From contig NC_023065.1 in NCBI RefSeq assembly GCF_000513295.1, positions 62,001 to 126,000 of the forward strand: a stretch of 64,000 nucleotides of DNA, written 5' to 3'. Both the position numbers and the translations under genes were made by a program. Below the pieces are notes generated by a model. The model saw only the letters and a list, made by a program, of their open reading frames with translations. It was not told the DNA's origin and searched no databases. Below, one piece after another: positions 5,665 to 48,657 of the stretch (within the stretch, counting starts at the first letter, position 1; each line of letters starts with the position of its first letter). Origin of the DNA: Magnetospirillum gryphiswaldense MSR-1 v2 (GTDB lineage Bacteria; Pseudomonadota; Alphaproteobacteria; Rhodospirillales; Magnetospirillaceae).

Positions 5665-5755
5665 GGCGCTTCGGTCTTTCGCGTCGGCGGGCGGCGTTCT
5701 CTTACTTGGCCTTGTGCGGATCGGGCAGTGAACGTTGTGTGACAGCTATCCGGAT

Positions 5756-5763
5756 GACTAGAC
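5756..5763. promoter_or_regulatory. PhnF-like operator before the DUF1045/EEP operon
   Basis: GACTAGAC within GATGACTAGACC closely matches GATGTCTAGACC in front of phnG. One base differs from the perfect palindrome. It lies in the 121-base gap between phnF and the DUF1045 gene, about 92 bases upstream of the DUF1045 start. HutC-subfamily GntR regulators, to which PhnF belongs, are known to bind GTCTAGAC-type sites. Binding here is inferred. Confidence 0.5.
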
Positions 5764-5785
5764 CTATGCGGGATTGGTCCAAAGA

Positions 5786-9599: not shown

Positions 9600-10372
9600 A
9601 CGATCACCCCCTGCTGCGGGTCAGCGGCCTGACCCATATGTACGGCGCCCGAATCGGCTGCCGCGACGTGTCGTTCGAATTGTGGCCGGGCGAGGTCATC
9701 GGCATCGTCGGCGAATCGGGATCGGGCAAGTCGACCTTGCTGTCGTGCCTGTCCACCCGCCAGCGCCCGACCACGGGTGTGGTGGAATACGATACCACCG
9801 ACCAGGGGCTGGTCGATGTCTATGGTCTGTCCGAGCCGCGCCAGCGCATGCTGATGCGCACCGATTGGGGCATCGTCCACCAGAACCCGCGCGACGGTCT
9901 GCGCATGGGGGTGTCGGCGGGGGCCAATGTGGGCGAGCGGTTGATGGCGGTGGGGGCTCGCCATTACGGCCAGATCCGCCAACAGGCCGGCACCTGGCTG
10001 GACAAGGTGGAGATCGACCCGACCCGCATGGACGACCAGCCGGCGACGTTTTCCGGCGGCATGCTGCAACGCTTGCAGATCGCCCGCAATCTGGTCACCC
10101 ATCCGCGTCTGGTGTTCATGGACGAACCCACCGGCGGCCTGGATGTGTCGGTGCAGGCCCGCCTGCTCGATTTGCTGCGCCGTCTGGTTACCGATTTGGG
10201 GCTGTCGGCCATCGTCGTCACCCATGATCTGGCGGTGGCCCGCCTGCTGGCCCACCGGCTGATGGTGATGAAGGGCGGCGAGGTGGTCGAGCACGGCCTG
10301 ACCGATCAGGTGCTGGACGACCCGCACCATCCCTATACCCAGCTTCTCGTTTCTTCGGTGTTGCAGCCATGA
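9596..10372 (+). CDS. phnK: C-P lyase ATP-binding protein PhnK
   Basis: A 258-residue ABC-type ATPase that binds the C-P lyase core complex rather than a membrane permease. Walker A is GESGSGKST, the signature is [14 protein letters not shown], and Walker B is [12 protein letters not shown]. The ATG at 9596 overlaps the phnJ stop (ATGA) and gives the usual family length; an earlier in-frame ATG at 9566 is inside phnJ. Confidence 0.94.
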
Positions 10373-32627: not shown

Positions 32628-33239
32628 TTATTCGGCCAAGGCCTGGAGGCAGTCGTGTTCCGACCGGCGCAGACGATCGCGCAGCGTTTGCCGGCCCCGC
32701 TTCAGCAGGCTTTCCACCGCGCTGACGGTGGTGTCCAGAATCTCGGCGATCTCGGCGTTGCCCAAATCGTCGAAATAGGACAGGGTCAGGGCCAGACGCT
32801 GCTGGTCGGGCAGCTTGCCCATGGCCTGTTCCAGCCGCCCGAACACCTGGGTGCGGTGGATGCGGGTGACCGAATCGGTTTCGTCGTCCATGGGTTCGGG
32901 AACGTCGTCCAGGCACTCGGTCGCCGGGCGGCGGCGCAGATCGATGCAGCGGTTGACCACCACCCGATAGAGCCAAGTGGAAAACTTGGCCTTGCCGTCC
33001 TGCCAGGATTGGCGGTGGGTCCACACCTTGACCAGACATTCCTGCGCCACGTCCTCGGCATCGGCCACATTGCCCAAGACCCGGAGCGCGATGGCATAAG
33101 CGCGGTCCACGTGGCGTTCCACCAACAGCCGATAGGCCGCCGCGTCGTCGTCCTTCATCCGCGCCAGCAAGGTTTCGTCATCCAGGCCGGCCAAGGCGGC
33201 GGCGGAACTGGCGGAAGTGGTCAGGCGCTGGATCATCAT
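32628..33239 (-). CDS. ECF-family RNA polymerase sigma factor
   Basis: A 203-residue extracytoplasmic-function sigma factor. Region 2 includes YAIALRVLGNVADAEDVAQECLVKVWTHRQSW and FSTWLYRVVVNRCIDLRRR. Region 4 includes LPDQQRLALTLSYFDDLGNAEIAEILDTTVSAVESLLKRGRQTLRDRL. It has no anti-sigma gene beside it. It lies 91 bases before fliC on the same strand and downstream of another ECF locus. A motif shared with that locus lies 39 bases upstream, suggesting common control or cross-regulation. Confidence 0.88.
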   Translation of the reverse strand: MMIQRLTTSASSAAALAGLDDETLLARMKDDDAAAYRLLVERHVDRAYAIALRVLGNVADAEDVAQECLVKVWTHRQSWQDGKAKFSTWLYRVVVNRCIDLRRRPATECLDDVPEPMDDETDSVTRIHRTQVFGRLEQAMGKLPDQQRLALTLSYFDDLGNAEIAEILDTTVSAVESLLKRGRQTLRDRLRRSEHDCLQALAE

Positions 33240-33806: not shown

Positions 33807-34127
33807 TCACAATCCCACCGGCGACAGGGGCTGGGCATAGGCGTAAAGGTCCAGGGGCGTGGTCACCGCCTGGGCCTGACCCAAGCCGGACAGCCCCGCC
33901 GCCAGACCTAGGGCCAGGCCCAGGACCAGCGACACAGCATAGCGCGGCAGGGCGCGCCAGGATCTGGCTGGCAGCAAATGCAGCCACCAGGGGGGCGGCG
34001 GTTCGGCGGCGATGCGGGTCAGCACGGTGCGGCTGATGCGGGCGACGCTTTGCGGGTCGATCTGCCGCGCCGGGTCGTGGCGCTTCAGCAAGGCGTCCAG
34101 ATCGTCGTGGAAACGGTCGGTGGTCAT
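33807..34127 (-). CDS. Small membrane anti-sigma factor candidate
   Basis: A 106-residue protein with a cytoplasmic N-terminal part of about 60 residues, one membrane helix (about residues 63-86) and a short periplasmic tail. The N-terminal part (DDLDALLKRHDPARQIDPQSVARISRTVLTRI) could bind the sigma factor. It overlaps the sigma gene by ATGA and precedes the periplasmic sensor by two bases. The role follows from position and topology, as in CnrY, not from a recognised domain. Confidence 0.7.
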   Translation of the reverse strand: MTTDRFHDDLDALLKRHDPARQIDPQSVARISRTVLTRIAAEPPPPWWLHLLPARSWRALPRYAVSLVLGLALGLAAGLSGLGQAQAVTTPLDLYAYAQPLSPVGL

Positions 34128-34702
34128 AGCAAATCTCCCGATGCGGCGAATCCTTGCCGCGACAGATAATCCCGCAAGCCGCGGCGCCCCCGCACCAGCA
34201 GCGATTCCAGCGCCGAAACACTGATTCCCAGGGTTTCGGCGGCCTGGGCATTGGTGGTCTCGCCCAGATGACACAGCGCGATGGCGGCGCGCTGGCGCTC
34301 GGGCAGGTGGTTCAGGGCCTGGGACACCAGCTTTTGCATCTGTCCCTGGGCCAATCGCTCCAGGCCGTCGGGGCCGGGATCGGGCGGTTCGTCGATGTCG
34401 TCCATGGCCACAATCGGCTTGCGCCGTTTGCGGTCGGTGCACAGATTGATCACCACCCGGTAAAGCCAGGTGGTGAAGCGGGCGCCGCCGTCGCCATCCC
34501 AGTCGGGGGCCTTGCGCCATACCCGCAAAAAGGCTTCCTGCGCCACCTCCTCGGCATCGTCGGCATTGCCCAGCATGCGCATGGCCAGGGCCAGGGCGAA
34601 CGGGGTGTGACGCTCCATCAAGGCGGCAAAGGCCCAGCGGTCGCCCTGGGCCGTGGCCTGCAACAAATCCTGGTCCGAGGGCGGGGCGGTCATTTCATTC
34701 AT
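34124..34702 (-). CDS. ECF-family sigma factor of a sensor operon
   Basis: A 192-residue ECF sigma factor with region 2 (ALAMRMLGNADDAEEVAQEAFLRVWRKAPDW, FTTWLYRVVINLCTDRKRR) and region 4 (LPERQRAAIALCHLGETTNAQAAETLGISVSALESLLVRGRRGLRDYL). It is a paralogue of the sigma factor at 32.6-33.2 kb. Start choice is between ATGs at 34702 and 34693; both lie close to a CGTGTAAG motif, so the mRNA could be leaderless. It leads the three-gene sigma, anti-sigma, sensor operon. Confidence 0.88.
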   Translation of the reverse strand: MNEMTAPPSDQDLLQATAQGDRWAFAALMERHTPFALALAMRMLGNADDAEEVAQEAFLRVWRKAPDWDGDGGARFTTWLYRVVINLCTDRKRRKPIVAMDDIDEPPDPGPDGLERLAQGQMQKLVSQALNHLPERQRAAIALCHLGETTNAQAAETLGISVSALESLLVRGRRGLRDYLSRQGFAASGDLL

Positions 34703-34708
34703 ATGCCG

Positions 34709-34745
34709 CTTACACGGGCCAAGCGTCCTCGGCCCTGCGCAAAAA
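34709..34745 (-). promoter_or_regulatory. Bipartite motif upstream of the second ECF sigma gene
   Basis: On the minus strand CTTTTTGCGC is followed 20 bases after TGCGC by CGTGTAAG. It ends only six bases before the ATG at 34702. This is the second copy of the motif found before the other sigma gene, and it suggests autoregulation. Confidence 0.45.
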
Positions 34746-34813
34746 GTCACGGCCTTGGTGCGCTTTTATCCGGGGCGGTCAAGGGGGGCGGTGTGGGATA
34801 TGATCGCGCCCCC

Positions 34814-34881: not shown

Positions 34882-35247
34882 ATGAGTGACACCCGCATCG
34901 GTCCGGCTCCGCCCGCGCCCAGTCCCGAGCCGCAATCGCGTGCAATTGCCGTCGAGGCGGCGGCGGAATTGGACGATCTGGCTCGCTTGCTGGTCCGCGA
35001 CGTGGAAACCACCCGGCTGGCGCGGGCGCAATCGCAGATCGAGGCATTGCTTTATGCCGCCCAACTGGCCTTGGCCCGGGGCGATGCCACTGGCTTGCGC
35101 GGCATCGCCTGGGAAGCCGGGCGCATCGCCCGTGATCTAGGTGGCGGCGATGCCGCCGCCGCCATTGTCGCCCAGGCCGGTCAGGTCTGTCAGTTGTGCG
35201 AAAAACCTAACGCGCCAACCACCCCCGCCAGCCGCCAAACGCCGTGA
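34882..35247 (+). CDS. Small hypothetical protein, possible ECF target
   Basis: A 121-residue protein. After a Pro-rich start it is helical and Ala-rich ([46 protein letters not shown]), and it ends with a CQLC pair and a Thr/Pro tail. I recognise no family. The ribosome site is weak. The end overlaps the convergent allophanate hydrolase gene by 41 bases. The motif shared with the two sigma genes lies 31 bases upstream, so it may be the regulon member of the divergent sigma factor. Confidence 0.55.
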
Positions 35248-36970
35248 TGTCGGTGGCGCCCCTTGTGGCGTGGCCTTCGCAGAGGAAGCCCTTGACCAAG
35301 GTGCCGTCGGCCAGGGTCAGGGTGCCGATGCCCAAGGGGGCGGGGATTTGGGCGACGAAGCTGCCGAAGGCTGCGGCGTCCATCTCGTAGATTTCCACCT
35401 CGATGGCGCCCGCCCCCAGGCCGTCGAACACCAGACCGGGCTTGGCCGGCTGGGTGTCGGCCAGGGCATAAAGGCTGTAGCCGGCGGCGGTGCGGGTGAC
35501 CGCTCGCAGCCGCGCCTTGCGTTCGACCAATTGATGATGCAAGGGCTGGCCGGCCAGATGGGCGCCGACCACCGCCAGGGCGATTTTTTCATTGGCGGCG
35601 GCGACAACCGGCGGCGTGCTGTCCAGGGCGATGCCGGTGCCGCCCAGGCTGGCACTGGGCAGGGCGCGGTGCAGGCGGTCGGCCAGGGCGGCGATGGCGT
35701 CATCCTGAAAGGCCCGGCCCATGATGGTGATGCCGAAGGGCAGGCCGTTGGGACGAAAGCCGGCAGGGATGGCGATGGCCGACAAATCCATCAGATTGAC
35801 GAAATTGGTATAGGCACCGAGATTGCTGTTGAGCCGGATCGGATCGGCCAGCACCTCGTCGATGCGATAGGTGGTGCCGGTGGTGGGCAGCAGCATGACG
35901 TCCATCCTGGCCCATTGGGTTTCCGCTTGGCGGATCAGCTCGGCCAACCGGTAAAAGCCTTTGAAGCCGTCGGCGGCAGAGATGTCTTTCGCCCCCAGGA
36001 TGATGCCGCGCACCACCTCGTGCAGGGACTCGGGTTTGGTGTTGGCGAAATCGTCGATGGCGGCCAGACGTTCCGCCACCCACGGCCCCGAATACAGCAA
36101 CTGGGCGCATTGGGCAAAGGGGGTGAAGTCGATATAGACCTGTTGCCCACCCAAGGCGTGCAGCCGCTCCACCGCTTGCGCGAACAGGGCTTCGGCCTGG
36201 GTATCGCCGAAGAATTCCAGCTTGCCCATGGGCAAGCCGAAGCGGAAACCGTCGGGCCAAGGGCCGGCTTGCGCGGCATTGCGCGAAAAAGCATCTTCCG
36301 GGTCATAGACGCCGGCCACCTCCAGCACCGCCAGGGCATCGGCGCAGGTTCCCGCGAAGATGGAAATGCAATCCAGGCTGCGGCAGGCCGGTACCAACCC
36401 GCGATTGCTGATCAACCCCTTGCTGGGTTTCAGTCCGACGATGTTGTTGAAGGCCACCGGCACCCGGCCCGAGCCGGCGGTGTCGGTGCCCAGTGAAAAC
36501 GACACCAGCCCGGCGGCGACGGCCACCGCCGATCCCGACGACGAGCCCCCCGACACATGATCGGGCGAAAACACCGACGAACAGATGCCGTAGGGCGAGC
36601 GGGTGCCGACCAGACCGGTGGCGAACTGGTCCAGATTGGTCTTGCCGATCAAGATGGCGCCCTCGGCCTGCAAGCGTTCGACGACGAAGGCCGAGCGGCT
36701 GGGAGTATAGGCGAAATCGGGGCAGCCGGCGGTGGTGGGCATGCCGGCCACATCGATGTTGTCCTTGACGGCGAAGGGGATACCCCACAGCCGGCCCTTG
36801 GGGGCTTGTTGCAACTGTGCCAGGGCCTGATCCTTGGGGATCAGGCTGATCCACACCGGGCGCTCGCCCATGGAGGCGATGCGGTCATAGACCTGATCCA
36901 GTACCTGGGCCGGGGTAAGGCTGCCGCTGGCATAGGCGTTTTTCAGATGGTCGATGTCGAGCGAGAACAT
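35207..36970 (-). CDS. atzF: Allophanate hydrolase
   Basis: A 587-residue amidase-family enzyme that hydrolyses allophanate to ammonia and carbon dioxide. The amidase-signature triad is visible: Lys in [10 protein letters not shown], and the Ser-rich [31 protein letters not shown]. The C-terminal 150 residues are the extra allophanate-hydrolase domain. I chose the ATG at 36970, which overlaps the carboxylase stop (ATGA); an in-frame upstream extension would run into that gene. It completes guanidine or urea breakdown with the genes before it. Confidence 0.93.
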
Positions 36971-39900
36971 CAGGCGGCCTCCTCGGTGATGACGGCCAGG
37001 ATTTGTCCCAGGGCGACGGCGCGGCCCTCGGCGCAACGCAATTCCGCCACGATGCCGGCAGCGGGGGCGAGCAGGGGGATTTCCATTTTCATGCTTTCCA
37101 CCACGATCAAGGTGTCGCCGGCCTCGACCCGTTGGCCCGGTTGGACGGCGATTTTCCACACGCTGCCCGGCACCGGGGCACAGGCGGCGACGCTGCCCGC
37201 CGGCACCGCCTGATCGCTGTCGTCGTCGACGGCTTCCGGCATATCGGCGCCATAGCCGATCTGGCCCGAGGCCTCCCAGCGGGCGCGCTCCTCGTCGAAG
37301 GAGTGCTGTTGGCGGGATTTGAAGGATTTGATCGAGGCGTCGTTATCGGCCAGGAACTTGCGGTAATCTGCCAGTTTAAAGGTGGTTTCCTCGATCTTCA
37401 GACGGGCCTTGCCGCGCGGGAAGGCGTCGCGGAATTCCAATAACTCCTGGGCCGAGACCTCGACGAAGCGGATCTGGTCGAAGAAGCGCAACAGCCACGG
37501 CTTGCCCGGCTGGAATTCCGCCGTTTCCTTGTGGGTGTTCCACACCTGACAGGTGCGCCCGACGAACTGATAGCCGCCCGGCCCCTCCATGCCATAGACG
37601 CACATATAGGCGCCGCCGATGCCCACGGCGTTTTCCGGCGTCCAGGTCCGCGCCGGATTGTATTTGGTGGTGACCAGACGGTGGCGCGGGTCCATGGGGG
37701 TGGCGACCGGCGCGCCCAGATAAACGTCGCCCAGGCCCAACACCAGATAGGAGGCATCGAAGACGATGCGCTTGACCGCATCGATACTGTCCAGGCCGTT
37801 GATGCGGCGGATGAACTCGATATTACTGGGGCACCACGGCGCGTCGGCGCGCACCGATTGCATGTATTTGCGGATGGCCTCTTGGGTGGCTTCGTCGTCC
37901 CACGACAACGGCAGATGGACGATGCGGGCCGGCACCTCCATGGCATCGTTGTTGGGCAGGCTGTCTTCCGCCTTCATCAGCAAGGCCAGCAATTCATGCA
38001 GGCACAGTACCCGGCTGTCGTAATGCAGTTGCAGCGAGCGGATACCCGGGGTCATGTCGATGATGCCGGCGGGGGCCAAGGCCCGCAACGCCGCCATCAG
38101 CGCATGGACGCGGAACCTGAGTTCCAGGTCCAGCACCAGCGGGCCGTATTCCACCAACAGGTATTTGTCGCCGGCGCGGCGATAGACCACGCGCGGGCGC
38201 TCGCCCTGGGCCGGGATGTCGCCCACCACCGCATCGTCGGGGCCGCTGCCGCCGGGCTGGGCCAGACTGTCCGTGTCCACCGGGGCGAAGGTTTCGATTT
38301 CCGCTTCCTGCTTGGCTTCCAGCAAGGCGGCCTGGGCCGGGGTCAGGCGGATGAAGCGCACGCGATCGCCGGGGCGCACTTGCCCCAGCTTCCACAATTC
38401 GGCCTGCACGATGGTGGCCGGGCAGACGAAACCGCCCAAGGATGGGCCGTCGGGACCCAGGATCACCGGCATGTCGCCGGTGAAGTCGATGGCGCCGATG
38501 GCATAGGCGTTGTCATGGATGTTGCTGGGATGCAGGCCGGCCTCGCCGCCATCTTTGCGCGCCCATTTGGGCTTGGGGCCGATCAGGCGCACGCCGGTGC
38601 GGTTGGAATTGTAATGCACCTCCCAAGGGGCGGCGAAAAACTGCTCGATGTCGTCATCGGTCAAGAAATCCGGCGCCCCGTGCGGGCCATACAGCACGCC
38701 GATTTCCCACTCGTGACCCAGCACCGGCATCAGCGCATCGGGCACGGGGCGGGGCTGGGCGGCGGCGTGGGGCTGACCCAGATGCAGCACGTCGCCCGTC
38801 ATCAGGGCGCGTCCGCCATGGCCGCCGAACTTGCCCAAGGTGAAGGTGGATTTGCTGCCCAGGTAATCGGGCACGTCGAAGCCGCCCTCCACCGCCAGAT
38901 AGGCGCGGCAACCGGCGCCGCTGACCGTGCCCAGGCGCAGCACCTGACCGGCGGCGACGGTGACCGGGGTGCCGTAGACAACCGGCTGGCCATCCAAGGC
39001 GGCGGCCATTTCCGCCCCCATCAGGCAGATTTTGGTGTCGGTGTTGAATTTGAGCGTCGGGCCCGACATGGTCAGTTCCAGCGCGGCGGTGCCGGCGGAA
39101 TTGCCAAGAGCATGGTTGGCCAGACGCATGGACAGGTGATCCATCGGCCCCGATGGCGGCACCCCCACGTCCCAATAGCCGGTGCGGCCGGGATAATCCT
39201 GGATGCTCGCCTGGGTGCCCACCGCCAGTACCTCGACCGAGCGGGCGTGGTGGATGAAGCTTTCCAGCGTGCGGGTGGTCACGCTGCCCTCGACGAAAGC
39301 CGGGCTGGCCACCAGGGCGCGCAAATAATCCAGATTGGTCTCGATGCCATTGATGCGGGTTTGGGCCAGCACTGCCTGCATCTTGCCCAAGGCGTCGGCG
39401 CGGTCGGTGCCGGTGACGATGATCTTGGCGATCATCGGATCGTAATAGGGCGAGATTTCAAGCCCCGCTTCCACCCAGGTTTCGACGCGGGCGTCAGCGG
39501 ACCAATGCACCTGGGTCAGCAGGCCGGAAGAGGGACGGAAGTCGCGGGCCGGGTCTTCGGCATAAAGACGCACCTGGATCGAGGCACCGCGCGCCCGCTC
39601 GGCGTGATCGGCCAGGGGCAGGGGCTCGCCCGCCGCCTGGCGCACCATCCATTCCACCAGATCGATGCCGGTGACCTGCTCGGTCACCCCGTGTTCCACT
39701 TGCAGGCGGGTGTTGACCTCGAGGAAGTGGAATTCGTCCGCATCGGTGTCGTAAAGGAACTCCACCGTGCCGGCATTGGCGTAGCCCACCGCTTGGCCCA
39801 GTTTGACGGCGGTTTCACATAATTGGTGCCGCAAGTGCGGGCTGATGCCCGGCGCCGGGGTTTCCTCGACCACCTTCTGATTACGGCGCTGGGCCGAACA

Positions 39901-40584
39901 ATCGCGTTCGCCCAGGGCCACCACGTTGCCCTTGCCGTCGCCGAAAATTTGCACCTCGATGTGGCGACCGCGTTCCACGTATTTTTCCAGGAACAGGCCG
40001 GGATCCTTGAAATTGTTGCGGGCCAGCCGCTGCACCCGCTCGAACAACGGCTCGAGCTCGGCTTCGCCGCGGCACAGCGACAGACCGATGCCGCCGCCGC
40101 CGGCAGTGCTTTTCAGCATCACCGGATAGCCGATGCGCTTGGCCTCGGCCTTGGCGTGAGCGACATCGTTCAGCAATCCCGATCCGGGGGCCAGCGGCAC
40201 TTTGGCCTTTTTCGCCAGATCGCGGGCGGTGTGCTTCAAGCCGAAGGCGCGCATGTGCTCGGGCCACGGGCCGATGAAGACGATGCCGGCACGGGCGCAT
40301 TCTTCGGCGAAATCAGGGTTTTCCGACAAGAAGCCGTAGCCGGGATGGATGGCCTGGGCGCCCGATCGGCGGGCGACGTCCAAGATGGAATCAGCCCGCA
40401 GATAGCTTTGCGCTGCCGGGGCCGGGCCGATGCAATAAGCCTCGTCGGCCATGGAAACGTGTAGCGAGTGGCGGTCGGCCTCGGAATAAACGGCGACGCT
40501 GGCAATGCCCATCTTGTTGAGCGTGCGGATGATGCGGCACGCGATGGCGCCGCGATTGGCGATCAGGACCTTGGTGAACATCAC
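36970..40584 (-). CDS. Guanidine/urea carboxylase (biotin-dependent)
   Basis: A 1204-residue biotin enzyme of the urea carboxylase family. In order: biotin carboxylase ([14 protein letters not shown] ... [14 protein letters not shown]), two carboxyltransferase-type domains ([28 protein letters not shown]), and a biotin carrier with Lys1166 in ESMKMEIP. Many such enzymes have been shown to be guanidine carboxylases when beside DUF1989 proteins and a ykkC riboswitch, as here. I therefore favour carboxylation of guanidine to carboxyguanidine. Substrate preference depends on residues I could not check by alignment. Confidence 0.93.
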
Positions 40585-41225
40585 TGAGCCTCCCAGATCA
40601 GCACGTCGATGGGGGTCGGGTTATAGGCGTTGCACGGGTTGTTGAGCTGCGGACAGTTGGAGATCAGCACCAGCAAATCCATTTCGGCCACCATCTCCAC
40701 ATACTTGCCCGGCCCCGACACGCCGTCGGCGAAGCTCAGGCCGCCCTCGGGGGTGATGGGCACGTTCATGAAGAAGTTGATGTTGTGGCCGATGTCGCGC
40801 TTGGAGAGGCCCCAATGATCATGCTCGGCCAGGGCGAGCACATAGGAATCGCGGCAGGCATGCATGGTCTTTTTTTCCAACGCATAGCGCACGGTGTTGC
40901 TTTCGGTGGCGCAGGCGCCGCCTAGCGTGTCGTGGCGGCCGACGAGATCGGCGGTGATCACCGCCATGACGTTGCCGTCCTGGCTGATCAGGCGCGAGCC
41001 CACCCCCAGATAGACCTTGCCCTGGTCGCCGATGGTGCTGGTGGCGCAATAGCGTTCGTGCGGGTCACGGGCGTTATAGAACAAGGTATCGGCGGCCTGA
41101 TTGCCGTCGACATCGACGATGCGCAGGGTCTGGCCCTTCTTCACCTCGTGCAGCCAGTAATCCCCGGCGGGCACGGTGGCGCTGTAGATGGCCGTGGCGG
41201 CGGCCAGTTCGCTTTCCTTCAGCAT
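40581..41225 (-). CDS. DUF1989 protein, carboxyguanidine deiminase subunit
   Basis: A 214-residue member of DUF1989, formerly called urea carboxylase-associated protein. Pairs of such proteins (CgdA and CgdB) are known to form carboxyguanidine deiminase, which makes allophanate from the carboxylase product. Conserved stretches are [33 protein letters not shown] and [23 protein letters not shown]. It overlaps the carboxylase gene by ATGA. I did not assign A or B. Confidence 0.88.
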
Positions 41226-41235
41226 GAACGCTCTC

Positions 41236-41952
41236 CTAGCCGATCAGGGTGTAAAGACGATTGTTCTCGAATCCGCGGCGGTTGGCCGGCGAGTGGTTCA
41301 GGCAGTAATCGTCCTGGGCGACCGGGGGGGTCCGCAAAAGCTGATAGGTCACCGGTTTTTTCGGATAATCGGGGCTGGGATTCATCGGGTGCGGGCAGGT
41401 GTGCAGCAACACCAGCGTATCCATCTCGAAACGCAGCGTGACCACCGAGCCGGCGGGCGAATTGGCGGGGTCGAATACCATGGTGCCGTCCTCGGTCACC
41501 GCGACTTTCGAGAATAGGTTGAGGTTGGCGGCCAGATCGCGCCGCCCCAGGCCGTATTTGCCGCCCTCCACCAAAAAGCTGTCATGACCGTTCAGGAACC
41601 AGTCGTTGCGGCAGGCCTGATAGGTCTTCACCCCCCAGCGTTTGGCCACCATGTCCTTGGTGGTATTGCCGCCGATGGTGTCGTGCCAGCCGACGCTGTC
41701 CTCGGTGATCGAGGCGAAGATGCGGCCCATGTCCGAATACAGGCAATGCCCACGGGTCAGCTTGAAGGTGTGCTGGCATTTCAGCGTGTCGGGGGCGTTG
41801 TAGCGCTCCAGAAGATTGGCCGGGTTGTAGAACAGCATGCCCGTATTGGCGCCGCCCTCGGCATCGATCAGGCGCAGGCTGGTGCCGCGCTTGGCGGTGA
41901 AGGACCAGTGTTTGCCGCCGGGCAGGGTGTCTTGGTACAAAAGCTCGCTCAT
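41236..41952 (-). CDS. DUF1989 protein, second carboxyguanidine deiminase subunit
   Basis: A 238-residue paralogue of the neighbouring DUF1989 protein. Shared features include [35 protein letters not shown] and [19 protein letters not shown], with a CPHPMNP tail. With its neighbour it should form the two-subunit carboxyguanidine deiminase. The start at 41952 has GGAGAAA six bases upstream. It sits 10 bases before its partner gene. Confidence 0.88.
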
Positions 41953-42025
41953 GCGGATTTCTCCGTCGTGCCGGGCCGTCCCGGCTTGGCGCGAACCCTC
42001 CGGGGTCGTCCCCGGAGGCAAGGGG

Positions 42026-42775
42026 TTAAGGTCGGACGATCTCGGCCCGTTCGGGCTTGTCGTCCAACGGCAGGTTCAAGGTGATGGTGGCGCCATAGGC
42101 CTGGGGTGCGTCGGGGTCGTGGCGCACCTTGTCGAAGGCCAGCACCCGGGTGGACAGGCCAAAGCCCTCCTTGATGTCGTGGGTGACCATGAACACCGTC
42201 ATCCGTTCCGCCCGCCACAGGGCGCGGACCAGATCGTGCATCTGCGCCTTGGTGCCGGGGTCGAGCGCGCCGAAGGGTTCGTCCATCAGCAAGATACGCG
42301 GCTTTCTGACCAGCGCCTGGGCGATGGACAGGCGTTGCTGCATGCCGCCCGACAATTCACCCGGATATTTGTCGCGGGCCTGATCCAGGCCGACGGCGTC
42401 GATGACGTGGCGCACCTCGTCCAGGGCCTGGCGCTTTTTCGCCCCCCACAGCTTGCCGAACAGGGGCGCGCGGGCGAATTCCAGCCCCAACACCACGTTT
42501 TCCTGCACGGTCAGATGGGCATAGGCGGAATAACGCTGGAACACCACGCCGCGATCGGGACCGGGTTCGGCGGCCAAGGGCTGGCCGTCGATGCGGATGC
42601 TGCCCCGGGTCGGTTGTTCCATGGACAGCAACAGGCGCAACAGCGTGGTCTTGCCGCAGCCCGACGGCCCGACCATGGCGCAGAATTCACCCGACGGGAT
42701 ATCCAGGCAGATGCGTTCCAGCACCACCTGATCGCCGTATTCCATCCACAGATTGTCGATGCTGACCCGGCTCAT
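42026..42775 (-). CDS. ABC transporter ATP-binding protein, guanidine uptake
   Basis: A 249-residue ATPase of the nitrate/taurine type. Walker A is GPSGCGKTT, the signature is LSGGMQQRLSIAQA and Walker B is ILLMDEPFGALD, followed by MVTHDIKEG. The ATG overlaps the permease stop (ATGA). Placed between the transporter genes and the guanidine enzymes, it probably powers guanidine import. Out-of-frame readings that fuse it to the permease are not real. Confidence 0.88.
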   Translation of the reverse strand: MSRVSIDNLWMEYGDQVVLERICLDIPSGEFCAMVGPSGCGKTTLLRLLLSMEQPTRGSIRIDGQPLAAEPGPDRGVVFQRYSAYAHLTVQENVVLGLEFARAPLFGKLWGAKKRQALDEVRHVIDAVGLDQARDKYPGELSGGMQQRLSIAQALVRKPRILLMDEPFGALDPGTKAQMHDLVRALWRAERMTVFMVTHDIKEGFGLSTRVLAFDKVRHDPDAPQAYGATITLNLPLDDKPERAEIVRP

Positions 42776-43593
42776 GACGCCCCCCTTGCCAGCCACGGGC
42801 ACAGACGGCGGTTCATGGTACGCAAGGCCCAATCCATGCAAAAGGCCAGCAGGGTGATCCAGGCCACATAGGGCAGGATGACGTCCATGGCCAGATAGCG
42901 CCGCACCAGGAAGATGCGATAGCCCAAGCCGTCCTGGGCGGCGATGGCTTCCGCCGAGATCAGGAACAGCCACGCCGGCCCCAGGGACAGCCGGACCGCG
43001 TCCAAAAGCTTGGGCCACACATTGGGCAGCACCAGCCGGGTGATGATCTGCCAGGTGCTGGCCCCCAGGGTCTGGGCCTTGATCACCAGTTCCGCCGGGA
43101 TGGCCTCGACCCTGAGCGCCAGATCGCGGATCAGGAAAGGCGCGATGCCGATGACGATCAAGACAACCTTGGACAATTCGTCCAGACCGAAGACGATGAA
43201 CAAGATGGGCAGGATGGCCATGGGCGGGATCAGCGACAGCACGGCGATAAAGGGCGATAGGCCGGCGCGGACATAGGGGATCAGGCCGGTGCCGATGCCC
43301 AAGATCAGCCCCAGGGCGGTGGACAGCAACAGCCCCAGGCCCAGCCGGGTCAGGCTGGAAGCGGTGTCGGCCCATAAAAGCACGTTGCCGCTGCGGGCAT
43401 CGGCGGTGAAGGCCAGGCGGTGGATGGTGTCGGCGATGGTGGACAGGGCCGGCAACAGCTTGTCACCGGGATTCTCGGCCAGACGCAGGGCCGAGAAGAC
43501 GACATAAAGCACCAACACCGCCAGGAAGGGGAGCGCCCCCCAGAACAGGGCGCTCCCTTTGCCGGGGCGCCGGTTGATGATCCGGCGGCCCAT
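42772..43593 (-). CDS. ABC transporter permease, guanidine uptake
   Basis: A 273-residue inner-membrane permease with six hydrophobic segments and the coupling motif VIKAQTLGASTWQIITRLVLPNVWPKLLDAVRLSLGPAWLFLI, typical of the SsuC/TauC group. It begins two bases after the substrate-binding protein gene and overlaps the ATPase gene. The substrate is inferred from the operon. Confidence 0.88.
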   Translation of the reverse strand: MGRRIINRRPGKGSALFWGALPFLAVLVLYVVFSALRLAENPGDKLLPALSTIADTIHRLAFTADARSGNVLLWADTASSLTRLGLGLLLSTALGLILGIGTGLIPYVRAGLSPFIAVLSLIPPMAILPILFIVFGLDELSKVVLIVIGIAPFLIRDLALRVEAIPAELVIKAQTLGASTWQIITRLVLPNVWPKLLDAVRLSLGPAWLFLISAEAIAAQDGLGYRIFLVRRYLAMDVILPYVAWITLLAFCMDWALRTMNRRLCPWLARGAS

Positions 43594-43595
43594 GC

Positions 43596-44666
43596 TTACA
43601 GCTTCCCGTCGGCGGCCAGCTTCATGAACTCGGCATCGAAGCGCAACTTCACGTTCTTGGCGTCGCCGATGGTCTTGCCGCCGGGGAAGGCAATGCCGAC
43701 CGCGTCCTTGGTCTTGGCGCCCTCGCCCAGCAAGCCGTGCTCGAACGAGAAGGTGCGGACCATGTCCATGGTCTTGGGCAATTGCGCCGAGGTGGCGAAG
43801 GCCACCGCGTCGGCGGGCTTGTAGAACATCTTGGTGGTGGCGAGCTGGGCCTTGTAGCCGGCCAGATCGGTGCCCGAGGCCTTGGCCATGTGTTCCAGCA
43901 TGGCGGTGTCGCCGGCTTCCATCTTGGCCATCATCTCGTACCACACGCCGGTGAGCGCCTTGCCCAAGGCCGGGTTGTCCTTGAGCGTGGCCGAGTTGAC
44001 CACCATCAGGTCGATGATCTCGCCCGGAATCTTGGCGCTGTCGAACACCTTGGTGGCGCCCTTGACCGCAGCGACTTCGGCCAGTTGCGGGTTCCAGGTG
44101 ACGACGGCGGTGGAATCCTTGGACGAGGTGAAGACGGAAACGATGTCGGCATCCGAGGTGTTGACGACGCTGACGTCTTTCTCCTTCAGCTTGACGCTGT
44201 CCAGCGCCCGGGCCAGCAGGTAATGGGAGACCGAAAGCTCGACCAGATTGATCTTCTGGCCCTTGAGATCGGCGACGCTTTTGCCCTTTTTCAGGACGAT
44301 GCCGTCATTGCCGTTGGAGAAGTCGCCGGAGATCAGCGCGGTCGAATCGACCCCGCCCGCCGCCGGAATGGTCAGTGCGTCCATATTGGTCATGACGCAG
44401 CCGTCGAAACCGCCGGCGGTATATTGGTTGATGGATTCCACGTAGTCGTTGATCTGCACGATCTCGACCTTGATGCCGTATTTGTCGGCCCATTTCTTCA
44501 TCAGGCCGGAATCGGCGGCATAGCCCCACGGCATCCAGCCGGCATAGATGGACCAGGCGACTTTGAAATCCTTTTTCTCGGCGGCAAAGCCGGGCGAACA
44601 GGTGGCGGCGACCATGGCGGCGGCGCCGACGGCCAGACCCAAAACTCGTTTCAGGGACGAACGCAT
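43596..44666 (-). CDS. ABC transporter substrate-binding protein, guanidine uptake
   Basis: A 356-residue periplasmic protein with a clear signal peptide (RVLGLAVGAAAMVAATCSPGFAA) and an NMT1/SsuA-like fold (FKVAWSIYAGWMPWGYAADSGLMKKWADKYGIKVEIVQINDYVESINQYTAGGFDGC). It is the first gene after the guanidine riboswitch, so guanidine or a close relative is the likely ligand. The ATG at 44666 has GAGGGGG upstream. It leads the transporter-enzyme operon. Confidence 0.9.
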   Translation of the reverse strand: MRSSLKRVLGLAVGAAAMVAATCSPGFAAEKKDFKVAWSIYAGWMPWGYAADSGLMKKWADKYGIKVEIVQINDYVESINQYTAGGFDGCVMTNMDALTIPAAGGVDSTALISGDFSNGNDGIVLKKGKSVADLKGQKINLVELSVSHYLLARALDSVKLKEKDVSVVNTSDADIVSVFTSSKDSTAVVTWNPQLAEVAAVKGATKVFDSAKIPGEIIDLMVVNSATLKDNPALGKALTGVWYEMMAKMEAGDTAMLEHMAKASGTDLAGYKAQLATTKMFYKPADAVAFATSAQLPKTMDMVRTFSFEHGLLGEGAKTKDAVGIAFPGGKTIGDAKNVKLRFDAEFMKLAADGKL

Positions 44667-44790
44667 GAAAAACCCCCTCGGTTGCTTAAGAAGCTTCACA
44701 AGGCACCGCGGGGGACGATCGGGTTTCAGGGTGGGGGCCTGGGCCGGGTGGGCAGAGACCGTCCCTGAGAATCCGAAGGCTCTCGCGGCA

Positions 44791-44893
44791 CAGCTCTCCC
44801 GGGCTTTTATCCCGCCGTGGCTCCGTTCGCCGTTGACCGGCGGACGGGAGTGCATCTCTTGGACCAGACACCGCGAGCGGTCGGAACCCTAGA
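44791..44893 (-). ncRNA. Guanidine-I (ykkC) riboswitch
   Basis: On the minus strand the aptamer elements occur in the right order: CTAGGGTTCCG, a short hairpin ACCGC-TC-GCGGT, GGTCCAAGAG, a second hairpin near 44830-44845, then ACGGCGGGATAAAAGCCC and CGGGAGA. These are the conserved blocks of the ykkC guanidine-I class. It lies 125 bases before the transporter gene. No T-run terminator follows, so translation control (the GAGGGGG ribosome site can pair with C-runs in the leader) seems possible. Confidence 0.9.
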
Positions 44894-44914
44894 CGCGTTA
44901 TGGCTGTTGTATAC

Positions 44915-44929
44915 GCAAAGCCCGTGCCA
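44915..44929 (-). promoter_or_regulatory. Sigma-54 promoter of the guanidine operon
   Basis: On the minus strand TGGCAC-GGGCT-TTGC matches the sigma-54 (RpoN) -24/-12 consensus at all ten conserved bases with the correct spacing. The predicted start, about 12 bases beyond the -12 element, is near 44903, ten bases before the riboswitch begins. Nitrogen control through an NtrC-type activator is expected; I could not identify its binding sites with confidence. Confidence 0.8.
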
Positions 44930-45089
44930 GCACCAAAGCCAGGGGTTGGCGTGTGCGCCGCGGCAAAGGGGCCGATTTTTAGGCATAAGCTTGCTTAAAT
45001 ATCAGGCAGAAGAGCGTTGCCACATCTTCGTTTGTGCAGTGCGGGAAATGGTTCTACCATCCCCTCCGGTGCCAATGGGGGAAAGATCC

Positions 45090-46643
45090 ATGCCGCTTGC
45101 TGATCGTCTGGCCGACAAACTGGAACAATTGCGGGCCAAGGCCATGGCCGGCGGCGGTGCCGCCAAGGCGCAGGAACGCCACGACAAGGGGCTGCTGACC
45201 GCGCGCGAACGGCTGGGAGTGTTGTTCGATCCCGGCACCTTCCAGGAAACCGGCCTGCATGTGCATCACCACGCCACCGCTTTCGGTCTGGCCGGCAAGG
45301 AGATGCCCGCTGACGGCGTGATCGCCGGCAACGGCTTCGTCGGCGGGCGGCAGGTGTCGGCGTTCAGCCAGGACTTTACCGTTGCCGCCGGCACGCTGGG
45401 CAAGATGCATGCGCAAAAGCTGGTCACCGCCATGCAATACGCGCTGAAGATGGGCGTGCCTTTGGTGGCGTGCAAGGATTCCGGCGGCGCCCGCATCCAG
45501 GAAGGCGTCGACGCCCTGTCCGGCTATGGCCAGGTGTTCTATCAAAACGTTCTGCTGTCCGGCGTGGTGCCGCAGATCGCCCTGGTGTTGGGGCCGTGCG
45601 CCGGCGGTGCCGCCTATTCGCCGGCCCTGATGGATTTCGTCATCATGACCCGGCACAACGCCCACATGTTCATCACCGGCCCCGAGGTGATCAAGGCGGT
45701 CACCGGTCAGGCCTATAGCATGGATCAGGTGGGCAGCGCCGAGATGCATGCGACAATCAGCGGCAATGCCCATTTCGTCGCCGAAAACGACGCCCATGCG
45801 GTGGAGATCGCCAAGGCGCTGCTGTCCTATCTGCCAGCCAACAACACCGAAGACCCGCCGCACCAGCCCTGGGCCGATATTCCGGTGGGCGCCGATCCGG
45901 TGCTGGACGCCCTGGTCCCCGACGACCCGTCGGAACCCATGGATGTGCGTCAGGTCATCGCCCGCATCGTCGACGACGGCAGCTTTCTCGAAGTGCATGC
46001 CGGCTGGGCCCGCAACCTGATCGTCGGTCTGGCCCGCATCGGCGGCATGGTCACCGGCATCGTCGCCAACCAGCCCACGGAAATGGCCGGTGCCCTGGAT
46101 ATCAATGCCTCCGACAAGGGGGCGCGCTTCGTCCGTTTCTGCAACGTCTTCAACATTCCCGTCGTCACCCTGGTAGATGTGCCCGGCTTCCTGCCCGGCA
46201 TCGAGCAAGAGCGGGGCGGAATCATCCGCCACGGCGCCAAGCTGTTGTTCGCCTATGGCTCTGCCACCGTGCCCAAGGTCACCATCATCCTGCGTAAGGC
46301 CTATGGCGGCTCGTATCTGGCCATGTGCAGCCAGGAAATGGGCGCCGATTGGGTGCTGGCCTGGCCCAGCGCCGAGATCGCGGTGATGGGGGCGGAAGGC
46401 GCCATCAACATCCTTTACCGTAAGGAACTGGCCGAGGCTCCCGACCGCAAGGCCAAGGCCAAGGAACTGGCGGCCCAATACCGCGACGAATTCGCCTCGC
46501 CCTATCTGTCGGCGAGCCAGGGCTATATCACCGATGTCATCATGCCGGCGGAAACCCGTGGCATCATCGCCCTGGCGCTGAGGAAGTCGCTGGCCAAGCG
46601 CGAGATCAGGCCGCCGAAGAAGCACGGCAACATTCCGCTTTAA
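45090..46643 (+). CDS. mmdA: Decarboxylase carboxyltransferase subunit (methylmalonyl-CoA type)
   Basis: A 517-residue acyl-CoA carboxyltransferase. It has GGARIQEGVDALSGYG, GPCAGGAAYSPALMDFVIM and GFLPGIEQERGGIIRHGAKLLFAYGSATVPKVTIILRKAYGGSYLAM, the CoA and carboxybiotin sites. The length matches methylmalonyl-CoA decarboxylase alpha subunits. The ATG at 45090 has GGGGGAAAG upstream. The three genes after it supply the other subunits of a membrane decarboxylase, so it works as a decarboxylase, not as propionyl-CoA carboxylase. Malonyl- or glutaconyl-CoA as substrate cannot be ruled out. Confidence 0.87.
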   Translation: MPLADRLADKLEQLRAKAMAGGGAAKAQERHDKGLLTARERLGVLFDPGTFQETGLHVHHHATAFGLAGKEMPADGVIAGNGFVGGRQVSAFSQDFTVAAGTLGKMHAQKLVTAMQYALKMGVPLVACKDSGGARIQEGVDALSGYGQVFYQNVLLSGVVPQIALVLGPCAGGAAYSPALMDFVIMTRHNAHMFITGPEVIKAVTGQAYSMDQVGSAEMHATISGNAHFVAENDAHAVEIAKALLSYLPANNTEDPPHQPWADIPVGADPVLDALVPDDPSEPMDVRQVIARIVDDGSFLEVHAGWARNLIVGLARIGGMVTGIVANQPTEMAGALDINASDKGARFVRFCNVFNIPVVTLVDVPGFLPGIEQERGGIIRHGAKLLFAYGSATVPKVTIILRKAYGGSYLAMCSQEMGADWVLAWPSAEIAVMGAEGAINILYRKELAEAPDRKAKAKELAAQYRDEFASPYLSASQGYITDVIMPAETRGIIALALRKSLAKREIRPPKKHGNIPL

Positions 46644-46654
46644 GGGGATCTGAC

Positions 46655-46984
46655 ATGAACGAAGCGGTGCAATTGGCGCTGGTGGTCTATGGTCTGGGCA
46701 TGGTCATCGCCCTGGCGGCGGCTTTGCTCATCAAATTCATCGTCGTCGCCCTGGCCTGGGGCGACCGCAAGGCCGCCGCGCCCGCTATCGCCACTGTCGC
46801 TCCGGCGGCACCGTCATCGGCGGACATTCCGCCCCATCATCTGGTGGTTATCGCCGCCGCCGCCCATGCCATGGTCGGGGCCAATCGCATCCTCCATATC
46901 GGTGCTGCCGCCGGCACCGCCGGCTGGTCGGCGGAAGGCCGCTTCGCCCATCACGGTTCGCACCACCCGGCCACTCATCACTAG
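46655..46984 (+). CDS. mmdD: Small membrane subunit of the sodium-pumping decarboxylase
   Basis: A 109-residue OadG/MmdD-like subunit. One N-terminal membrane helix (about residues 5-34) is followed by an Ala/Pro linker and a conserved-type HHLVVIAAAAHAMVGANRILHI. The tail is His-rich (HHGSHHPATHH), as in OadG proteins that bind zinc. It links the carboxyltransferase to the membrane pump. It follows mmdA by 11 bases. Confidence 0.82.
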   Translation: MNEAVQLALVVYGLGMVIALAAALLIKFIVVALAWGDRKAAAPAIATVAPAAPSSADIPPHHLVVIAAAAHAMVGANRILHIGAAAGTAGWSAEGRFAHHGSHHPATHH

Positions 46985-46997
46985 GGTCTGAAACACC

Positions 46998-47399
46998 ATG
47001 CAGAAGAAGTTGCGCATCACCGTCGAAGGCAAGGTCTATGACGTGCTGGTCGAGGATCTGTCCGACAACGGTCTTGGCTTGCCCGCCGCCTATCCGTCCA
47101 TCGCCGGCACCGGGGTGCCGTCCTTCGTCGCCGCCGCCCCCATGGCCGCACCGCCGCCGGCTGCCGCCGCGCCCGCCGTCGCCGGGGCTGGCGACGAGAT
47201 CAGCCCGTTGGCCGGCATGGTCGAAAGCCTGGCGGTCAGCGTCGGGCAAAAGGTGGCCGAGGGCGACAAGATCGCCGTTATCGAGGCGATGAAGATGAAG
47301 ACCCCGATCATGGCCCGGCATTCCGGCACCGTCACCAATATCGCCGTCACCGCCGGCCAGGCGGTCGAGGCCGGTCACGTCCTGATGACCATCGGTTAA
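46998..47399 (+). CDS. mmdC: Biotin carrier subunit of the decarboxylase
   Basis: A 133-residue biotin carrier protein. After an N-terminal part and an Ala/Pro-rich hinge (about residues 45-70), the biotinyl domain has the attachment motif EAMKMK with the target Lys near residue 99. It shuttles the carboxyl group from MmdA to the MmdB pump. It lies between the small membrane subunit and mmdB. Confidence 0.9.
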   Translation: MQKKLRITVEGKVYDVLVEDLSDNGLGLPAAYPSIAGTGVPSFVAAAPMAAPPPAAAAPAVAGAGDEISPLAGMVESLAVSVGQKVAEGDKIAVIEAMKMKTPIMARHSGTVTNIAVTAGQAVEAGHVLMTIG

Positions 47400-47409
47400 G
47401 GATATTCCC

Positions 47410-48657
47410 ATGGATCGCTTGAACGTCCTGGATCTGTTCCAAGGCCTTGCCACCCTGGCGGCGGCGGAACCCAGCATTCTGGTCATGCGGCTGGTGCTGA
47501 TCGCCCTGGGCGTCTTGTTGATCTATCTGGGCAAGAAAGGCGTGCTGGAAGCCCTGCTGATGATCCCCATGGGCTTGGGCATGGCCACCATCAACGCCGC
47601 CGTCTTGTTCGTGCCCGAAGGCGGCTGGCTGCGTGCCGGCCCCAACCAGATTTTCGTCGATGCCCTGGCTGTCGCCGACAACGCGGCGCAGACCACGGCT
47701 TTGATGAATATTTTGCAGATCAATTGGTTGCAGCCCATCTACACCTTCACCTTCAGCAACGGCCTGATCGCCTGCGTGGTGTTTTTGGGCATCGGCGTGC
47801 TGCTGGATGTGGGCTACGTGATGGCGCGGCCGTTTCAAAGCATGATCCTGGCCTTGTTCGGCGAATTGGGCACCATCGCCGTCTATCCCATCGCCATCGC
47901 CCTGGGCCTGACCCCCGGTCAGGCGGCCTCGGTGGCCATCATCGGCGGCGCCGACGGGCCGATGGTGCTGTTCACCTCGCTTTCCTTGGCGCGGGAATTG
48001 TTCGTGCCCATCACCGTGGTCGCCTATCTGTATCTGGGGCTGACCTATGGCGGCTATCCCTATCTGATCCGCCTGCTGATCCCGGCGCGGCTGCGCGCCT
48101 TGCCCATGCCGATGGAAAAACCGCGCAAGCCCATCACCTCGGGGCAGAAGATCGCCTTTTCGGTGACCTTGTGCATCTTGCTGTCGCTGTTGTTCCCGGT
48201 GGCGTCGCCGTTGATCCTGTGCCTGTTCCTGGGTGTCATCATCCGCGAAAGCAATCTGGTGCCGTACATGGATCTGCTGGGCGGGGTGTTCCTGTACGGC
48301 GGCACCTTCTTTCTCGGCCTGCTGCTGGGGGTGCTGTGCGAGGCGCGGCTGATCCTCGATCCGCAGGTGTTGGTACTTTTGCTGCTGGGCATGCTGGCGC
48401 TGCTGATTTCCGGCATCGGCGGCATCATCGGCGGCTATGTGCTTTATTTCGCCAGTGGCCGCAAGTTCAACCCGGTCATCGGCATCGCCGCCGTCTCCTG
48501 CGTGCCGACCACCGCCAAGGTGGCGCAAAAGGAAGTGACGGCGGCCAATCCCGGCGTGGTGGTCATGCCCCACGCCTTGGGCGCCAGTATCAGCGGCGTC
48601 ATCACCACCGCCATCCTGGCCGCCATCTATGTGACGGTGATCCAGGCGGTTTATTAG
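47410..48657 (+). CDS. mmdB: Sodium-translocating decarboxylase beta subunit
   Basis: A 415-residue, very hydrophobic membrane protein of the OadB/MmdB/GcdB family, which decarboxylates carboxybiotin and exports sodium ions. The conserved IIGGADGPMVLFTS with its key Asp is present, as is SCVPTTAKVAQKEVTAANPGVVVMPHALGASISGVI near the end. It ends the mmdADCB operon and overlaps a convergent gene by four bases. Confidence 0.93.
   Translation: MDRLNVLDLFQGLATLAAAEPSILVMRLVLIALGVLLIYLGKKGVLEALLMIPMGLGMATINAAVLFVPEGGWLRAGPNQIFVDALAVADNAAQTTALMNILQINWLQPIYTFTFSNGLIACVVFLGIGVLLDVGYVMARPFQSMILALFGELGTIAVYPIAIALGLTPGQAASVAIIGGADGPMVLFTSLSLARELFVPITVVAYLYLGLTYGGYPYLIRLLIPARLRALPMPMEKPRKPITSGQKIAFSVTLCILLSLLFPVASPLILCLFLGVIIRESNLVPYMDLLGGVFLYGGTFFLGLLLGVLCEARLILDPQVLVLLLLGMLALLISGIGGIIGGYVLYFASGRKFNPVIGIAAVSCVPTTAKVAQKEVTAANPGVVVMPHALGASISGVITTAILAAIYVTVIQAVY

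Follow-up and report, generated by a model that had tools for sequence, protein, structure and literature searches.

Operons for guanidine assimilation that are headed by a guanidine-I riboswitch and carry a guanidine-II riboswitch internally are already known from Raoultella, Erwinia and Klebsiella (PMC12186494) and from Vreelandella boliviensis (PMC12508155), according to the passages of these papers on the operons. They comprise an ATP-binding cassette (ABC) importer, a deiminase pair, a carboxylase and an allophanate hydrolase. A passage in PMC12186494 calls the natural role of guanidine an open question, and the words NtrC and sigma are absent from the text of this review; in PMC12508155 the promoter is not treated in the introduction and the passages on the operon. 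Here we describe an operon of this kind from Magnetospirillum gryphiswaldense MSR-1 v2. It lies in a stretch of 64,000 nucleotides (contig NC_023065.1, positions 62,001 to 126,000), hereafter the window, and all positions are counted from the first letter of the window. The layout agrees with that in the papers named, with one difference: guanidine-II precedes the carboxylase gene there and the deiminase pair here. We consider it probable that the operon serves to scavenge nitrogen from guanidine and is gated twice in succession, by an NtrC/sigma-54 promoter and then by a riboswitch. No paper joining guanidine riboswitches with NtrC or sigma-54 was found in the open-licence literature; the hits either had these words in unconnected places or, judged by title and abstract, dealt with c-di-GMP.

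The seven genes are all on the minus strand (44666-35207), and upstream of them is a sigma-54 -24/-12 box, TGGCACGGGCTTTGCG (44914..44929, minus strand), with the -12 C at 44915. The usual spacing of sigma-54 starts relative to the -12 element places the predicted +1 at 44903, which coincides with the first base of the guanidine-I aptamer and of its Rfam model. Compared with TGGCAC-N5-TTGCW the box has one mismatch, at the last base; GG at -24, GC at -12 and the spacing between them are intact. The preliminary description of this DNA, made from the letters alone, had called the promoter a full match, which is right for the cores and the spacing and slightly generous for the last base. TGGCACGGGCTTTGCG was the top-scoring sigma-54 box on both strands of the window, and among the 12 top boxes listed (six per strand) it was the only one with a strong upstream enhancer score, 18.2 vs 4.5 or less. 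A sigma-70 scan gave no site near 44903. The genome (4.37 Mb) contains one RpoN match, of 224.9 bits. Box-like sequences with up to two mismatches were not above chance in the window (29 found vs 37.9 expected), and motif counting alone was discarded as evidence; the case therefore rests on conservation, position and controls.

Guanidine-I leaders were collected by family, class and phylum searches, in which 11 of 55, 38 of 387 and 57 of 397 genomes, respectively, had matches, together with further matches thereof. A second set came from contigs reached via the first DUF1989 protein (the best 80 of 398 relatives); aptamers in these contigs were located by our own model R1 and not by Rfam (72 matches), and no family codes (f-codes) were given to them. 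The 194 sites represented 176 distinct ones. One of them, L114, was dropped because too little DNA precedes it, and eight that did not reach the Rfam cut-off were tallied separately, which left 167 leaders with at least 100 bases upstream each, 114 of them above the Rfam cut-off and 53 from the DUF1989-derived contigs. A class match at a contig start (G260:C347:1-102) is outside these counts. A box was recorded when it scored at least 10 on the correct strand within 150 bases upstream.

By this measure a sigma-54 box was present in 140 of the 167 distinct leaders, mostly from Pseudomonadota (98/114 above the Rfam cut-off and 42/53 among the DUF1989-derived ones). On the opposite strand a box was found in 4/167, and in other 150-base windows of the same loci in 70/2183. 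Counted by genome, the Rfam-based search set had a box in 80 of 94, and counted by family in 30 of 34. Within the family of the window genome, a box preceded the aptamer in every one of the 11 genomes with a guanidine-I match, the window genome included. The sub-cut-off sites had one in a single case out of eight (L231). The boxes fell into two geometries, which we named after the main class of each. Alpha-type leaders (67, nearly all alphaproteobacterial, with a few contigs labelled otherwise, such as L125, L135 and L146) have 17-26 bases from the -12 C to the invariant CTAG, which puts the predicted +1 outside stem P1 in every case, 5-14 bases ahead of CTAG; in the 73 gamma-type leaders the distance to CTAG is 46-96 bases. 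Leaders of thiamine pyrophosphate (TPP) riboswitches from the same class had no sigma-54 box (0/30), a control weaker than it looks, as the source genomes were taken regardless of RpoN content and several were small. Guanidine-II leaders of the class had none either (0/25); 15 of them precede gdx-like genes, four are under the Rfam cut-off and seven are inside operons.

A palindrome missed in the preliminary description, TGCCTGATATTTAAGCA (TGC-N11-GCA; 44992..45008, minus strand), is centred at about -97 from the predicted start and is a putative NtrC enhancer. The P-II genes glnB and glnK are classical NtrC targets, and a matrix was trained only on 28 glnB/glnK enhancers from 12 alphaproteobacteria (30 loci, minus L269 at a contig edge and L268 with no box), giving the consensus TGCCTAAaatTTAGGCA. 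With this matrix the window site scored 18.2 bits, a value reached by 0 of 396 background windows, which were taken downstream of aptamers and are mostly coding DNA. The 99th percentile of the background (threshold 8.9) was exceeded by 53 of the 67 alpha-type guanidine promoters. When the matrix was run over longer upstream stretches, 3/30 TPP and 2/25 guanidine-II regions passed; in these sequences the NtrC-type site is much commoner before guanidine-I, though not unique there.

Searches that used no prior motif were run upstream of the boxes. In the gamma-type set the top pair of a dyad search was GCAC-N7-GTGC (15/64 vs 0.8 expected, pseudocount 0.3), and an expectation-maximisation (EM) search gave the consensus cGCACCAtnaTGGTGCg, which we take to be the NtrC site of enteric bacteria. 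The same EM search of the alpha-type set gave TGCCCAAnnnTTGGGCA, with a log-likelihood of 426 vs 32-42 in shuffled sets. The preset pattern GCAC-N4..8-GTGC was enriched in the gamma-type set (17/73, shuffled mean 1.2). The enteric NtrC consensus, with up to two mismatches allowed, fitted 35/72 gamma-type promoters vs 14/438 in the background, and it did not fit the alpha-type ones (2/67 vs background 3/396). A palindrome picked by eye, TTWRGC-N8-GCYWAA, gave three sites in a genome scan vs six for a control pattern, and was replaced by the dyad and EM searches. Both an ntrC gene (727 bits, cut-off 559) and an upstream NtrC-type site were found in the window genome, two of the marks of membership in the NtrC regulon; the identity of the site rests on the P-II motif. 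Taken together, the comparison across genomes and the independent NtrC-motif test strongly supported the sigma-54 promoter that the preliminary description had placed before the aptamer.

RpoN was tested in 80 genomes, 73 of which were above the cut-off, and boxes were compared in the 73 genomes with an over-cut-off guanidine-I site. The box was found in 0/5 genomes with no RpoN above the cut-off and in 59/68 with RpoN present (Fisher p = 1.3e-4, a value limited by the fact that all five RpoN-less genomes are from one family, f21). Four of the five had no RpoN match at all, and G765 had one of 21.4 bits, under the cut-off of 22.8. Three of the five (L200, L213 and L215) still carry the NtrC motif, some 90-100 bases ahead of CTAG, at 16.0, 19.4 and 14.7 bits; the other two leaders, at 7.9 and 7.6 bits, are below the threshold of 8.9. 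Among all box-less leaders seven pass this threshold. NtrC of Rhodobacter capsulatus and other Rhodobacterales is described as having no GAFTGA loop, and that of R. capsulatus is reported to work via sigma-70, in the passages of PMC10274813 concerned with it. Family f21 would belong to such GAFTGA-less, sigma-70-type NtrC lineages. An NtrC-type box 88 bases before CTAG with no sigma-54 box was also seen in L122 (Roseospira) and L131 (Rhodospira).

The guanidine-I aptamer itself (RF00442; 44794..44903, minus strand) scored 77.6 bits against a gathering cut-off of 63 and covers model positions 1-107 completely, and the ykkC guanidine-I call of the preliminary description was thereby confirmed with Rfam. 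In addition, a complete guanidine-II (mini-ykkC) riboswitch (RF01068; 41971..42017, minus strand; 46.8 bits, gathering 32) was found in the 73-base gap between the ATPase gene and the first DUF1989 gene, where it had been overlooked. Two hairpins and both ACGR loops are present, the curated score is reached, and the fold of the region has a z-score of -3.3. The guanidine input had been described as acting on one leader; the leader aptamer is real, and the site is not single, as a guanidine-II element also stands before the deiminase genes. When the best 150 first-look candidates of each class in the genome were scored, no second guanidine-I was found, and one additional guanidine-II was. Downstream of it, at genome position 3260694, is a gene whose product, with 105 residues, belongs to the small multidrug resistance family (PF00893, 91 bits). 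Among NCBIfam models SugE fits this product best, with 113.5 bits and the cut-off of 126 narrowly missed, and we call it gdx-like. This gene has no sigma-54 box.

Between the guanidine-I aptamer and the first gene there is a hairpin, CCCCCGCGG...CCGAGGGGG followed by U5 (44668..44714, minus strand), the 3' arm of which includes the Shine-Dalgarno sequence of the first gene. The 53-nt segment around this expression platform folds with -20.7 kcal/mol, and the fold of the whole leader is not distinct from that of shuffled sequences (z -1.06). The stem is kept in five congeners (L009-L013), with the U tract one shorter in four of them (L010-L013), and L006 has a variant stem with no U tract.

All seven genes were confirmed by NCBIfam and Pfam as co-directional members of one set, from the binding protein to the allophanate hydrolase, as the preliminary description had it. 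Neighbouring genes overlap or are separated by at most 10 bases, with the single exception of the 73-base gap. The first gene codes for a periplasmic substrate-binding protein (43596..44666; TIGR03427, 555 bits, cut-off 334), which has the family name "putative urea" and here probably binds guanidine. It is followed by an ABC permease (42772..43593; PF00528) and an ABC ATPase (42026..42775; PF00005), the start of which overlaps the permease stop. Two DUF1989 proteins (a group which we take to be the same as COG3665) are next, UAAP1 (41236..41952; TIGR03425, 336 bits, cut-off 206) and UAAP2 (40581..41225; TIGR03424, 322 bits, cut-off 285), both subunits of carboxyguanidine deiminase. They make up the CgdAB pair, with one subunit from each clade as assigned by these two hidden Markov models. 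The guanidine carboxylase, annotated as urea carboxylase (36970..40584; TIGR02712, 1889 bits, cut-off 1304), is followed by the allophanate hydrolase (35207..36970; TIGR02713, 793 bits, cut-off 511), whose ATG at 36970 overlaps the carboxylase stop. The name biotin carboxylase, given to the former in the preliminary description, was correct as to a carboxylase and too narrow, since the protein, 1204 residues long, is an entire urea/guanidine carboxylase with carboxyltransferase and biotin domains. Its Asp700 aligns to Asn1330 of the yeast urea enzyme (Kluyveromyces lactis, PDB 5i8i and 3va7) and its Asp953 to Asp1584 in the K. lactis numbering. The residues at 1330 and 1584 are used to distinguish guanidine carboxylases from urea carboxylases in the relevant passage of PMC11410670, and the enzyme has Asp at both, where urea carboxylase has Asn at 1330. 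Judged by these residues the pathway is guanidine assimilation, not urea, and the earlier call of a guanidine pathway held.

The operon itself is ordinary. Of interest are the nitrogen gate and its wide occurrence, together with its lack in the tested exporter leaders and what became of it where RpoN is missing. Two neighbourhoods of the operon may be mentioned. Divergently from it, at 45090-48657 on the plus strand, there are genes of the sodium-pumping methylmalonyl/malonyl-CoA decarboxylase type (MmdA-like, biotin carrier, beta subunit), none of which reaches its curated cut-off. Downstream of it are two related, neighbouring genes for sigma factors of the extracytoplasmic function (ECF) type (32628-33239 and 34124-34750, both on the minus strand).

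Some other genes behind guanidine-I elements were noted in the collected loci. In L022, L030 and L116 guanidine-I and a sigma-54 box stand directly before a TonB-dependent receptor gene (PF07715 in L022, TonB receptor models in L030), and in L116, taken as the same contig as L022, the importer binding protein is about 2.6 kb further on; such receptors are candidates for an outer-membrane guanidine receptor. Weak guanidine-I-like elements below the Rfam cut-off precede EamA transporter genes in L224, L225, L226, L230 and L231, four of the five with no box, and are possibly a ykkC variant or an exporter branch. Guanidine-I precedes an arginase-family gene in L199 and an amino-acid permease gene in L214, both with no sigma-54 box. 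Two relatives have an extra guanidine-II upstream of the operon (L106, 4200-4247; L110, 4776-4822).

The sequences themselves show which parts are present, in what order and how well conserved, and they supply the controls; from these we infer NtrC binding, the start site, the action of the riboswitches, AND behaviour and the contrast with the exporter. In nitrogen shortage, phosphorylated NtrC would bind the palindrome at 45008-44992 and sigma-54 RNA polymerase would start at 44903, and the nascent RNA would form the guanidine-I aptamer at once. Only when bound to guanidine would the aptamer keep open the downstream hairpin, which otherwise masks the ribosome site of the first gene and may terminate the transcript. 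Guanidine-II would be a third, local check on translation of the deiminase pair. The ABC system would import guanidine, and carboxylase, deiminase and allophanate hydrolase would free its three nitrogens as ammonia. Export through the gdx-like protein, behind guanidine-II and with no sigma-54 box, would depend on nothing but guanidine, and assimilation on both guanidine and a need for nitrogen. A strict AND logic would fit this anatomy.

Several other explanations have to be weighed against this proposal. If the sigma-54 box were a chance match, an ordinary promoter would make the leader and guanidine alone would matter. Matches that differ at no more than two bases occur often in the window, as counted above, but position-specific conservation in 30 of 34 families, the clean controls and the empty sigma-70 scan near 44903 leave this explanation very little probability. 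Equally hard to believe is a urea operon, which the NCBIfam names of TIGR03427, TIGR02712, TIGR03424 and TIGR03425 would favour; two guanidine riboswitches, the DUF1989 pair and the Asp at the 1330 position, where the urea enzyme has Asn (the distinction drawn in PMC11410670), speak against it. The promoter could also be a real sigma-54 promoter served by another enhancer-binding protein, such as NifA, an AtoC-like response regulator or a PrpR-like protein. A search of the genome for the sigma-54 activator domain gave eight matches, of which two are weak. Above their own cut-offs are NifA, NtrC and FlbD; the AtoC-like and PrpR-like proteins are below every cut-off, and a sixth activator, encoded some 3 kb away from NtrC, is taken on this account to be NtrX. 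The window contains none of the eight, however, and the window enhancer has its high score with a matrix from P-II genes. Moreover, the gamma-type set yielded the enteric NtrC site, and TGT-N10-ACA, a NifA site, was not enriched (1/67 alpha-type, 3/73 gamma-type). We therefore regard another activator as improbable, if somewhat less so than the two explanations before it.

More weight has to be given to a graded control, in which nitrogen status, acting through NtrC/sigma-54, does most of the switching and the riboswitches do no more than adjust an output that leaks, although we still hold it to be unlikely. Homologues in Burkholderia cenocepacia are strongly NtrC-dependent in nitrogen limitation, with guanidine not mentioned in the passages on them (PMC5491218), and the riboswitch gate may leak because these homologues were expressed under nitrogen limitation in that setting. 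Strict terminators are also rare in the leaders. On the other side, both aptamers in the window are complete, and guanidine-I is present in most of the DUF1989-derived loci (72 matches in the best 80 of 398). In V. boliviensis most operon proteins were undetected on ammonium; the comparison was with guanidine as sole nitrogen source, so guanidine and ammonium were changed together (PMC12508155, in its part on this comparison).

Besides this possible leak, several observations count against the two-gate reading. The strict terminator pattern was found in 6/67 alpha-type and 0/73 gamma-type leaders (1% in shuffled ones). For these leaders the counts led us to reject the idea that guanidine-I riboswitches always act by stopping the transcript, and termination is therefore not the general mechanism; given also the shorter U tracts of the congeners, translational control appears as likely as termination. 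No box was found in 27 of the 167 guanidine-I leaders, some of which (L190 and L173) are second aptamers, located later in operons in which the first aptamer does have one. RpoN-bearing genomes with no box numbered 9/68; three of the five f37 genomes and G726, which has two RpoN matches, are box-less though RpoN is present. Only 7 of 72 gamma-type promoters passed the P-II matrix, so that for the gamma type the argument is based on the enteric consensus. The sigma-54 matrix, finally, was preset and not trained.

With the two-gate operon as the preferred reading, we lean, with less confidence, towards a wider one that concerns Pseudomonadota as a whole. Guanidine assimilation would be a core part of the NtrC regulon, with exporter riboswitches behind non-sigma-54 promoters and those of import and assimilation behind NtrC/sigma-54; an RpoN-less lineage would keep the NtrC box and shift to sigma-70, and the stacked leaders of Azospirillum described below would add a further check. 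If this is true, guanidine would be exported whenever it appears and used only when nitrogen is short. A guanidine-sensing RNA tied broadly to a nitrogen-starvation promoter would point to guanidine as food when nitrogen is short, and assimilation would be set apart from detoxification by the type of promoter. A further suggestion is that entries named "urea carboxylase" in published NtrC regulons be reinterpreted as genes for guanidine use. The leader would be a natural example of an AND gate made of protein plus RNA, with parts that can be swapped singly.

Several pieces of this picture are known separately: the operon, the layout of guanidine-I and guanidine-II, a predicted sigma-54 control of DUF1989 genes, and NtrC dependence in one species under the label "urea". 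The last is B. cenocepacia H111. There, loss of ntrC lowers expression of the "urea carboxylase" cluster I35_7283-7286, by log2 6.0 in the case of I35_7286, and of the 150 genes most affected by NtrC 95% depend on sigma-54 as well (PMC5491218). The passages of that paper on the cluster interpret it as urea use and mention neither a riboswitch nor guanidine. In another strain of B. cenocepacia the homologous locus (L270) has divergent guanidine-I aptamers at 5213-5337 (minus strand) and 5770-5901 (plus strand), with a sigma-54 box of 15.6 before each. The forward leader has an upstream site of 15.2 by a gamma matrix, which was trained on guanidine loci and hence is not independent. By analogy with that strain, H111 would have the same leader. 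The predicted sigma-54 control comes from a part of PMC12316311 in which 102 COG3665 genes are placed under sigma-54, 59% of them named urea carboxylase; its main text does not contain the word guanidine, and riboswitch is used once, in the reference list.

A comparison can also be made with tandem riboswitches and RNA logic gates, in which two ligand sensors act on one message (PMC9481103, in the passages on tandems). The likeness is in the combination of two inputs, and the difference is that the second signal here would enter at the promoter. The same passages report no tandem with any guanidine class and suggest that cells do not need to integrate guanidine with other signals. In five of eight Azospirillum loci (L115, L117, L119 and L120 at about 9712-9971, and L271 at 5712-5971; not in L111, L112 and L121) we observed a stack of guanidine-I and guanidine-II-like elements before UAAP1. 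Two hairpins of the guanidine-II type follow guanidine-I by about 70 bases in one leader, with 29.8-37.8 bits in our own model; they stay below the Rfam cut-off, probably due to a long linker. These stacked leaders contrast with the passages on tandems in PMC9481103, where such an arrangement was reported as unobserved.

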